A stretch of 64,000 nucleotides of DNA, from positions 2,108,001-2,172,000 of the forward strand of contig NZ_AP027058.1 in the NCBI RefSeq assembly GCF_027925025.1, in the 5' to 3' direction. The notes under the pieces were generated by a model. It was not told where the DNA came from. It saw nothing but the letters and a program-made list of their open reading frames with translations, and ran no database searches. The position numbers and the translations under genes are program-made. Origin of the DNA: Limnohabitans sp. MORI2 (GTDB lineage: Bacteria > Pseudomonadota > Gammaproteobacteria > Burkholderiales > Burkholderiaceae_C). Position 1 is the stretch's first letter; every line of letters begins with the position of its first letter. Of the stretch, positions 8,410 to 42,404 are shown piece after piece.

Positions 8410-11400
8410 ATGAGCAACGCATCCGCCACCCCACTCGAACAACCCGGTTTGAACAGCTTATCTAAGTCGTTCGAACCCGCCGCCCTTGAAGCCCACTGGG
8501 GCCCCGAGTGGGAAAAACGCGGCTACGGCGTGGCCGGCTACCGTGGCACGTCAGCACCCAACACCGAGGCCAGCGCTGCCGGCAAAAACTTCGCCATCCA
8601 GTTGCCCCCACCTAACGTGACCGGCACGCTGCACATGGGCCATGCGTTCAACCAAACCATCATGGACTCGCTCACGCGCTACCACCGCATGCGTGGCTTC
8701 AACACCGCCTGGATTCCCGGCACCGACCACGCGGGCATTGCCACGCAGATCGTGGTGGAACGCCAGCTGCAAGGCCAAGGCATCAGCCGCCACGACATGG
8801 GCCCCACGCCCGCCGAAGCGCGCAAGAACTTTGTGAGCAAGGTCTGGGAATGGAAAGAGCAATCGGGCAACACCATCACCCAGCAGATGCGCCGCATGGG
8901 CGACAGCGTGGACTGGAGCCGCGAGTACTTCACCATGGACGACAAGCTCTCCAAGGTAGTGACCGAGACCTTTGTGAAGCTCTACGAGCAAGGCCTGATC
9001 TACCGCGGCAAGCGCCTAGTGAACTGGGACCCGGTGCTGATGAGCGCGGTGTCTGACCTGGAAGTCGAGAGCGAGGAAGAAGACGGCTCGATGTGGCACA
9101 TCCGCTATGACCTGGCCGATGGAAGCGGATCATTGACCGTAGCCACCACCCGACCCGAAACCCTGCTGGGCGACGTGGCCGTGATGGTCCACCCAGAAGA
9201 CGAGCGCTACAAACACCTGATCGGCAAGCAAGTGAACCTGCCGCTGTGCGGCCGCACCATTCCCGTGATTGCGGACGAGTATGTGGACAAGGAATTCGGC
9301 ACGGGCGTGGTCAAGGTCACCCCCGCGCACGACACCAACGACTATGCCGTGGCTGTTCGCCACAACCTGCCAATGGTTTGCGTATTAACGCTGGACGCGA
9401 AGATCGTCCATAAAGACGCACAACTTCAACAAATTCATGACAGCTTGAGAAGCACACTCAGCCGTGCATATGACTTGCATGAAGCTCGCAACTTCATCCC
9501 AGCGCACCTGCAAGGGCTTGATCGTTTCGAGGCACGTAAACGTATCGTCTCAGACCTCGAAGCCGCAGGCCAGTTGGTCGAGGTGAAGAAACATAAGCTC
9601 ATGGTGCCGCGCTGCGCCCGCACCGGCCAGGTGATCGAGCCCATGCTGACCGACCAGTGGTTCGTCGCCATGAACCAAGTCGGCAAAGGCGATGCCACCG
9701 GCAAGAGCATCGCGCAAAAAGCCATCGACGCCGTGCAAAGCGGCCAGGTATCTTTCGTACCCGAGAACTGGGTCAACACCTACAACCAGTGGATGAACAA
9801 CATCCAGGACTGGTGTATCTCGCGCCAGCTGTGGTGGGGCCATCAGATCCCGGCCTGGTACGACGAAGACGGCAATGTTTACGTTGCTCGCGATGAAGCC
9901 GAAGCACAGGCCAAGGCGGGTGCGGGCAAAACCTTGAAGCGTGACGAAGACGTACTCGACACTTGGTACTCCAGCGCATTGGTGCCTTTCAGCACTGTAG
10001 GCTGGCCAGTAGCTGGCGAGGGTGTCGGGACTGGACGCAGCGACATTGCGAGCGAAGAGAGTGGGAGCAAGGCCGGTTCCGGCACCCTCGCCAGCGGCTC
10101 CACGGATTACGACCTGTACCTGCCATCCTCTGTGCTGGTCACCGGCTACGACATCATCTTCTTCTGGGTCGCCCGCATGATCATGATGACCACGCACTTC
10201 ACAGGGCGTGTGCCGTTCAAACATGTGTACATCCACGGCCTGGTGCTCGACGCCCAAGGCAAGAAGATGAGCAAGTCAGAGGGCAACGTGCTCGACCCTG
10301 TGGACTTGATCGACGGCATCACACTTGAGCCTCTGCTCGAAAAACGTACCCAAGGTTTGCGCAAGCCCGAGACCGCACCCAAGGTGCGCAAGCAAACTGA
10401 AAAAGAATTCCCAGAAGGCATTCCGGCCTACGGTGCAGATGCGCTGCGCTTCACGTTCGCGGCACTTGCCACGTTGGGTCGTTCGATCAACTTCGACAGC
10501 AAGCGCTGCGAGGGCTACCGCAACTTCTGCAACAAGCTGTGGAACGCCACCCGCTTTGTGCTGATGAACTGCGAAGGTCAAGACTGCGGCCTCAAAGAAC
10601 ACACCAAAGAAGAATGCAGCGTGGGTGGCTCAGCCCATGGGTACTTGACGTTCAGCCAAGCCGACCGATGGATTGTGTCCAAGCTGCAGCGTGTGGAAGC
10701 CGAAGTGGCAGAAGGCTTTGCAGCTTATCGCTTAGACAACGTGGCCAACACGATTTACGACTTCGTGTGGAACGAGTTCTGCGATTGGTATTTAGAAATC
10801 GCTAAGGTGCAAATCAATGTGGGCGATGACTCGCAAAAACGTGCAACGCGCCGCACATTGATTCGCACACTCGAAACCATTTTGCGTTTGGCCCACCCCA
10901 TCACCCCTTTCATCACCGAAGAGCTGTGGCAAACCGTGGCGGTGGTGGCGGGTCGCAAAGCGGCTGACGACACATCAGCGTCCATCAGCATCGCAGCCTA
11001 CCCTGTGAGCCAGCCTGAGCGCATTGACGAGCAAGCTGAGGCCTATGTCGCCCGCGTGAAATCGCTGGTCGATGCCTGCCGCAACTTGCGTGGCGAAATG
11101 GGCGTGTCACCCGCCACGCGGATGCCTTTGTTTGCGCTGGCTGGCAGCGCCGAAGAACATGCCTTCATGCAAAGCGTCGCGCCAGTGTTGCAAGCCTTGG
11201 CCAAGCTCAGCGAAGTCAAGGTGTTTGACAGTGAAGCCGAATGGTCGGCCGCTGCACAAGCCGCACCTGTGGCCGTGATTGGTGAGTTGCGTGTGTGCTT
11301 GTTCATCGAAGTGGACGTAGCCGCCGAGAAAATTCGCTTGGGCAAAGAAGTCGAGCGCTTGCAAAACGAAATTGAAAAAGCCGGCTCTAAGTTGAAGAAC

Positions 11401-41386: not shown

Positions 41387-41737
41387 ATGCGCACGATTGC
41401 AACAATCATCTTTTTAATGCTCCATCTCGTAGCTGGAGCTAGGGAATATCAACTCCTCACTGGCAGTTACTCCATCGGAGGTAAAACTTTCTACGATGCG
41501 CCAGACAACGAACCTAACGACCCGCACATTTATTTCAACCTTACTGGGCCAGCAGCGAAAGATCTTTTTGAGTCGATGAAAGTCAAACCCTTTCGTGATG
41601 AATGCACAGACGATGGTTCATTCACCAAACGCATCAAAGAAATGCAATGCACTGAATCTGCAGACCGCAAAGAGCACCGATGCTGGTTTGGCATTGATGT
41701 GAAAAAACAGCGCATCACAAATGGAGTAGTTTGCTGA
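41387..41737 (+). CDS. Unknown small secreted protein with four cysteines
   Basis: This 116-residue protein has a signal peptide (MRTIATIIFLMLHLVAGA, cleavage near residue 18). A polar mature domain has YFNLTGPAAKDLFESMKVKP and then four Cys residues, in DECTDD, MQCTES, HRCWFG and the terminal GVVC, enough for two disulfides in the periplasm. I cannot name a family. The spacing is reminiscent of small periplasmic inhibitor-like proteins, but that is only a guess. It lies 25 bp after the membrane-anchored orphan gene, and a 72-bp palindrome begins 21 bp after its stop. Confidence 0.62.
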   Translation: MRTIATIIFLMLHLVAGAREYQLLTGSYSIGGKTFYDAPDNEPNDPHIYFNLTGPAAKDLFESMKVKPFRDECTDDGSFTKRIKEMQCTESADRKEHRCWFGIDVKKQRITNGVVC

Positions 41738-41757: not shown

Positions 41758-41829
41758 GGCGAGGAGGCTGGCTGCGGCTGACGATTTCTGGTACTCCAGC
41801 ATGAGGAAGCCGCAGTCAGCCTCCTCGCC
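41758..41829. repeat. 72-bp near-perfect palindrome (REP-like)
   Basis: Arms 41758-41779 and 41808-41829 are 22 bp long and match at 21 positions; the outer ends read GGCGAGGAGGCTG. The centre holds a second small hairpin (CTGG-TACT-CCAG, 41788-41799). It lies between two convergent gene ends and has no T-run, so it is not a classic terminator. It looks like a repetitive extragenic palindrome or a structured RNA end. Its outer GGCGAGG is shared with the palindromic element inside valS. Confidence 0.65.
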
Positions 41830-41846: not shown

Positions 41847-42404
41847 TCAAGCCAAAAGCCGCGAACTCTTAGGCACATGCGCCATCAAAAACTCCATCTG
41901 ATCCGCCAAGATCCGGCGGTTTCTCAAGATGAAGTCCTCCCACAGCGATGGCTCATAGGGCGCATACAACAAAGGCATACGCGCTTGCTCAGGCGTGCGG
42001 TTACCCTTGCGGTGGTTGCACGATTTACACGCCGTCACCACATTCATCCACGTGTTCGGGCCGCCTTGGCCGATGGGGCGAATGTGCTCTCGGGTCAGCT
42101 CTGATTCGTGAAAGTGGTCACCACAATACGCGCAGATGTTGCGGTCGCGGGTGAAAAGTTTGTCGTTGGTCAGGCCCGATTTCAAATCAAACGGGTTGAT
42201 GTTGGGCACGCCCTTGGTGCCAATGATGCTGTTGACCGTGATGATGGACTGCTGCCCTGTGATGGCATTGGTGCCGCCATGAAACACCGCTACCTCGCCG
42301 CCAGACTCCCAGCGCACCTCGTCGGCCGCGTAATGAATGACCGCTTGTTCCAGCGATATCCACGACTGCGGTAGCCCTTGGGCAGACAGTTTCAAGACCT
42401 TCAC
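41847..42404 (-). CDS. HNH endonuclease family protein
   Basis: This 185-residue protein has a C-terminal HNH nuclease domain. The zinc knuckles are C91-x2-C94 (CAYCGDHFH) and C126-x2-C129 (CKSCNHRKGN); the catalytic block is LTREHIRPIGQGGPNTWMNV with H107 and N121. The first 85 residues are a separate domain (SWISLEQAVIHYAADEVRWE). Stand-alone HNH proteins of this form are widespread in Burkholderiales; some act in defence or phage packaging, but no such partner genes are here. It is divergent from ribF. Confidence 0.88.
   Translation of the reverse strand: MKVLKLSAQGLPQSWISLEQAVIHYAADEVRWESGGEVAVFHGGTNAITGQQSIITVNSIIGTKGVPNINPFDLKSGLTNDKLFTRDRNICAYCGDHFHESELTREHIRPIGQGGPNTWMNVVTACKSCNHRKGNRTPEQARMPLLYAPYEPSLWEDFILRNRRILADQMEFLMAHVPKSSRLLA

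Follow-up and report, generated by a model that had tools for sequence, protein, structure and literature searches.

An in-frame palindrome in valS as a probable member of a REP-like repeat family with a conserved tip and locus-specific paired arms

The palindrome within valS of the window, by which we denote the whole 64,000-nt stretch of DNA that was analysed, is probably an intragenic copy of a REP-like repeat family of the Comamonadaceae. Most copies of this family, here termed family A, have a conserved core of about 30 nt at the tip and, on either side of it, complementary arms that are peculiar to each locus. The geometry described in the initial annotation was recovered: both arms (Table 1) are complementary at 20 of 23 positions (87%), enclose 38 nt and lie in frame in the valS open reading frame of this Limnohabitans-like genome, where the insert is read as a Gly/Ser/Ala-rich loop. 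In an alignment with the solved ValRS structure 1gax_A, it is placed between residues 474 and 475 of that enzyme, within the segment that follows STLGWP.

Table 1. Features of the window that carry or form the palindromes described in the text
Feature	Position	Strand	Basis
valS, valyl-tRNA synthetase ORF, 1035 aa	8410..11517	+	in-frame carrier of the insertion; Pfam
Left arm of the valS palindrome, 23 nt, locus-specific	10012..10034	+	arm pairing, fold compared with shuffles
Family-A apical core in valS	10037..10068	+	genus pattern, 1 mismatch
Right arm of the valS palindrome, 23 nt, locus-specific	10073..10095	+	arm pairing, fold compared with shuffles
Family-B hairpin, 22-nt arms (95% complementary), core CGATTTCTGGTACTCCAGCATGAG	41758..41829	+	inverted-pair scan, core search

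None of 200 dinucleotide shuffles reached a fold as good as that of the valS hairpin (RNA z -5.84; DNA z -4.00). Folded as DNA, the core strand of the window copy yielded -29.2 kcal/mol and the other strand -24.1 kcal/mol. The 64-kb window contains 16 inverted pairs of at least 17 nt within 120 nt; the valS palindrome ranked second to the family-B hairpin, and the other 14 pairs were at most 79% complementary. The single mismatch of the valS core (genome place G000:C1:2118037-2118068) to the genus pattern lies at position 10058, within the apex GCGAAGC. The intact GCGAAGC is a DNA mini-hairpin of unusual stability; the window copy reads GCGAAGA and has lost the perfect apex. A search of window positions 9700-10400 against Rfam gave no match above the gathering score, the single match being at chance level (15.3 bits, gathering 90).

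The valS linker was surveyed in the window and 80 related loci, together 81, of which 78 were readable (all except L056, L066 and L103). Between the flanking ValS motifs the window encodes 38 aa, compared to 10-16 aa in 60 of the 78 sequences and longer segments in the other 18. The notion that the insertion occupies a normally short linker thus held, and since many relatives lack the insertion, the loop is not a homologous feature of all of them. Fifteen of the 18 long linkers (38-56 residues) contained the core at a loose cut-off. They belong to Limnohabitans, some Rhodoferax, Comamonadaceae, Tepidicella and Tepidimonas, the cores of the last two having 6 and 8 mismatches of 29, respectively. 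Most of these 15 linkers fold as a long hairpin; L045 does so in part and L057 does not. The core orientation is reversed in L045, L057, L059 and L017. In genomes G082 and G103 the valS core differs in subtype from that of the six remaining rows in the clade, and is inverted in G082; re-insertion, recombination between species, or inversion with turnover of the arms are possible causes. On a ValS tree built without the insert, the presence of the hairpin must change 11 times among 104 rows, of which 41 had the core at a loose cut-off; as presence of the core was in part a criterion for choosing the rows, this figure is not a rate. The valS site tolerates palindromic insertions and may attract them; the effect on the enzyme is probably neutral, the insert being placed in a tolerant linker. 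Two further valS loci deserve mention. Variovorax sp. PCZ-1 (L069) carries an unrelated palindrome in frame at the same site, with the peptide VRAEPVEASVSPSTSSGRTG, and in G134 (L192) two adjacent family-A hairpins of opposite orientations form a linker of 96 residues.

The palindrome had initially been regarded as a mobile element of 84 bp. An inserted repeat with dispersed relatives was indeed found, but the repeated unit is the core and not the 84-bp palindrome, which did not recur in its own genome (all other arm matches had E-values of at least 0.2). The core of about 30 nt occurs at eight places in this genome, seven detected with a 32-nt pattern and the eighth with a 27-nt pattern; second copies, in the sense of family members sharing the core, are therefore present elsewhere in the genome and in the genus. 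With up to three mismatches, the 32-nt pattern matched 24 of 84 genus genomes, the own genome included, and its reversed control gave 0 matches. A draw of 399 genomes from the family, searched with a 29-nt pattern allowing up to two mismatches, contained 22 with the core, representing 12 of 141 genera. In a class-wide draw, the 27-nt pattern was present in one of 369 genomes, which was the own genome. The core, CGAC/CGAT-ATTCT-GAGCGAAGCGA, resembles small REP palindromes of the CGTC type and presumably also widespread GAGCGAAGCGA repeats.

In the own genome, the core lies in frame in valS, in a gene that we take from its sequence to be uvrA, and in a gene matching DUF3025; judged by the open reading frames, the remaining copies look intergenic. 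They include two paired cores, flanked on one side by a plus-strand frame and on the other by uvrA, at its 3' end. In another genus, the core forms part of the reading frame of a radical SAM gene, presumably of the YgiQ type, whose product matches Radical_SAM_N, Radical_SAM and DUF3362 in Pfam. Thirty DUF3025 loci were fetched, of which 12 were unreadable; an insert of the same kind was present in 9 of the 18 readable loci and absent from the rest. From presence and absence among relatives in general, together with the dispersed copies, we infer mobility of the palindrome family. Neighbouring family-A copies are mostly arranged head to head: 15 of 17 distinct pairs are minus-plus, two minus-minus and none plus-minus, with orthologous loci included and single copies uncounted. 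One place in the own genome (1834297; L134:398-429) has the core without matching arms. By eye, the left and right arms of this locus and of L118 resemble the two members of a pair in relatives (L111), and such a pair may have collapsed here through a deletion between the cores.

After removal of copies with less than 20 nt of flank, 122 family-A copies could be surveyed for stems. A stem adjoins the core in 111 of them, and 11 failed the cut-off. These numbers overstate the evidence because orthologous copies are not independent; the 111 stem-bearing copies form 31 arm clusters, the largest with 46, 17 and 11 members. The arms measure 20-30 bp, and the stems of 95 copies had a median of 27 aligned positions. 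Core identity between clusters averages 80%; the arms reach a score of 5.64, compared to 5.19 for shuffled arms. This slight excess, the 11 copies below the stem cut-off and the lost apex of the window copy speak against the reading favoured here. Across 43 representatives, information amounted to 0.5-2 bits in the core columns and did not exceed 0.6 bit in 73 of the 80 arm columns.

The uvrA insert allowed the arms to be compared at one site. A 114-nt in-frame stretch of equal length occurs there in 21 genomes; the core is inverted in two of them (L216 and L219), which were excluded, leaving 19 gapless sequences for the covariation analysis. Of the 26 outer pairs of the stem, 18 were changed on both sides and five were invariant. 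Stem cells were paired in 96% of cases, compared to 81% in shuffles and 29-54% with slid partners, the latter comparison being favoured by the derivation of the structure from one of the 19 sequences. Comparisons between close uvrA pairs, which are not independent, yielded 17 double changes that kept Watson-Crick pairing, 10 of them transversions and 7 transitions, besides 3 other double changes and 64 single changes. A double transversion cannot pass through a G.T intermediate, and these cases therefore hint that both arms changed in one step, as expected from template switching. As the arms differ by site and still pair, it seems to be the shape of the stem that is maintained and not its sequence. 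The idea that the arms arose by inverted copying of the native flank found no support in uvrA or in the DUF3025 gene, where uninserted linkers are short and have no arms visible by eye; at uvrA, the uninserted sites comprise 9-15 residues in 18 of 20 fetched (rows L231, L245 and L253 were not read). Genome G092 has two uvrA matches, one with the insert and one without (L214, L249), which may reflect a paralogue or contamination.

A second family of similar build, family B, is represented in the window by the hairpin listed in Table 1, which lies between convergent open frames, a plus-strand frame ending at 41734 and a minus-strand frame ending at 41850. Its core matched at 14 places in the own genome, individual places being among the matches listed, and in 19 of the 84 genus genomes; the reversed control gave one match in all 84. 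A stem was present in 53 of 54 copies, and all 21 neighbouring pairs were minus-plus (orthologous loci included, single copies uncounted). The inner arms (about 8 bp) are more conserved than those of family A. At two loci of one genome, L309 and L319, the arms are related. Since some arms are thus related between loci, the hairpins would have been copied as a whole and then diverged in pairs; at least for family B, this speaks for copying and paired divergence rather than for arms built anew. Many family-B pairs (L289-L326) seem to share their outer flanks, CTGGGCTCGCT at one end and CTCTCCGG at the opposite end, which hints at a composite element.

These observations bear on the possibility that valS received the entire 84-bp palindrome as a mobile unit of the classical Rickettsia type, which has decayed by drift since. 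The in-frame position within essential genes, the scattered copies and their presence and absence among relatives are in line with such an element, as are the family-B arms partly common to loci. We nevertheless consider it unlikely, because the family-A arms score close to shuffled ones while the core is shared between clusters, and because the uvrA arms covary instead of decaying.

Stems are lost in some sequences. In valS of L015 and L124 the left arm is missing, and in uvrA of L226, L229 and L233 the core is missing. As the gene persists after loss of the stem, the fold is no strict requirement at these loci, a point against the favoured reading. The short forms L226, L229, L233, L327 and L329, which retain an arm or remnants of the outer part, are read best as deletion derivatives, in the presumed direction of change. 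In uvrA of G010, G081, G095 and G064 (L225, L227, L228 and L230), an unrelated palindrome of the AATTGGGGTCAGA type or the AATTGGGGTCAGATCCCAATT type is found in frame, so this site takes unrelated palindromes as well.

Which strand folds can be approached through the mismatches in the stems. Counted on the core strand with one copy per cluster, transition mismatches comprised 47 G.T and 9 A.C (p=2.6e-7), besides 35 mismatches of other kinds. Family B gave a G.T:A.C ratio of 19:1 (one per cluster, 14 clusters). All stem-bearing copies were counted when family A was divided by place, 13 of 108 copies having been dropped for failing the stem cut-off; the ratios were 66:10 for valS sense, 52:13 for uvrA sense, 23:1 for valS antisense, 12:2 for uvrA antisense and 51:9 for the rest. 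An inverted hairpin brings along its old wobbles, which qualifies these figures. A role in the host transcript, such as translation pausing, transcript stability or 3'-end formation, would agree with the RNA fold far below that of the shuffles, with several intergenic copies situated directly downstream of open frames, and with the predominance of sense cores within genes (32 sense and 6 antisense in valS, 18 and 2 in uvrA, in rows that are not independent). In the antisense copies, however, it is still the core strand that has more G.T than A.C, so the host mRNA carries the A.C mismatches and is not the common denominator; some species, moreover, have lost the stem and retained the gene. An mRNA hairpin is thus disfavoured as the sole function, and we regard the mRNA explanation as improbable overall. 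The common denominator is single-stranded DNA or an RNA of the core strand.

Mobilization of a non-autonomous element by a REP-associated tyrosine transposase (Y1_Tnp) would be compatible with the favoured reading as its mobility step. The inverted pairs resemble REP dimers, and a strand-specific fold suits a single-stranded substrate. Y1_Tnp matches occurred in 63 of the 84 genus genomes, including 22 of the 24 with the core, but also in 41 of the 60 without it; two genomes with the core, G094 and G104, both incomplete, gave no match. In three genomes the surroundings of the Y1_Tnp gene were inspected; none of the hairpins listed there had the core, and for this reason no transposase was assigned. 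No constant GTAG tag was found beside the core or the arms of the 43 representatives. Taken as a whole, this explanation appears doubtful. A RAYT-like Y1_Tnp gene of the own genome (L267:990-1724; G000:C1, about 2321789-2322523) adjoins a AATTAATTGGGGTCAGAACCCAATTAATT palindrome and is perhaps the partner of that repeat. An ordinary indel with a palindrome arisen by chance, although linker length does vary among relatives, can be dismissed given that shuffles never attained the fold, that the core recurs in uvrA, the DUF3025 gene and other sites, and that the arms covary.

The following sequence of events would account for the REP-like family with a common core and private arms. The core strand would fold as a single-stranded nucleic acid, and the hairpin would feed intrastrand template switching, in which the polymerase rewrites one arm with the other as template and at times reverses the centre. 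Template switching alone leaves the wobbles on one strand unexplained; selection, the same switching process or a single-stranded step of mobility may keep the fold on the core strand. Copies would spread, possibly by a single-strand mechanism of the REP type, and would be lost through in-frame deletion. More tentatively, the tip alone may be the replicated unit: an inserted mini-hairpin would act as a seed, from which template switching builds and rebuilds a private paired stem at each site. If so, the shape of the stem would be inherited and its sequence free, even within essential protein genes.

A conserved loop on a stem that is free as long as it pairs separates selection on sequence from selection on structure, and the many loci and species serve as replicates in coding and non-coding DNA alike. 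It can therefore be tested with these repeats whether arm pairing in bacterial palindromes stems from selection or from template-switch mutation, and which strand folds.

Among known systems, the CGTC REPs come closest. In the portions of the source available, they are described as small palindromes without a dedicated transposase, mostly intergenic near the 3' ends of ORFs and in head-to-head pairs, with some copies inside uvrA and tRNA synthetase genes (Di Nocera et al. 2013, PMC3733652). Head-to-head dimers predominate in families A and B too. The CGTC REPs have a consensus over the whole repeat, stems of 8-9 bp, loops of 4-5 nt and a CGTC tag, and some are nested in longer palindromes, those with a consensus as well, as far as the same portions tell (PMC3733652). 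Our repeats differ in that a core of about 30 nt tips a stem of 20-30 bp without consensus, in place of a stem of 8-9 bp, and in that CGAC/CGAT takes the place of a CGTC (or TGTC/CCTC) tag, almost every core starting with GCGAC or GCGAT. The main text of that study contains none of the words Comamona-, Burkholderia-, Acidovorax and Polaromonas (PMC3733652). From the GTAG REP/RAYT systems, the family is set apart by the missing GTAG tetranucleotide and by the absence of the core from the listed hairpins that flank the Y1_Tnp (RAYT-like) gene in three genomes.

The likeness to Rickettsia palindromic elements drawn in the initial annotation stands in one respect, namely a palindrome in frame in protein genes, here valS, uvrA, the DUF3025 gene and the radical SAM gene. 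It does not extend to the arms, which covary and vary by locus here; those of the Rickettsia elements, known to us by the description in an excerpted source, lose identity over time (PMC6649704). The same excerpts report inverted repeats kept in protein genes of nematomorph mitochondria, for which template switching is one proposed mechanism; their arms encode conserved protein, in contrast to the dispensable linker and the core common to loci in our case (PMC6649704). According to the parts of the template-switch studies at hand, the process can create and maintain hairpins (PMC8794818), homogenizes arms and inverts spacers (PMC8604942), and hairpins whose compensatory changes occur in one step show an enrichment of stable loops (PMC8794818; PMC8604942). 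As far as those parts extend, these studies concern RNA genes and yeast coding genes and do not deal with a family of dispersed repeats that share a tip. No description of a tip-defined repeat family with free paired stems and one-sided wobble was met in the available portions of the literature searched, including PMC3733652 and PMC8266576. The accessible part of PMC3733652 already describes REPs located in uvrA and in tRNA synthetase genes, dimers in head-to-head arrangement and the nesting of REPs inside longer palindromes; what appears to be new, against the literature covered, are REP-like intragenic palindromes with a conserved tip, a free but paired stem and one-sided wobble.
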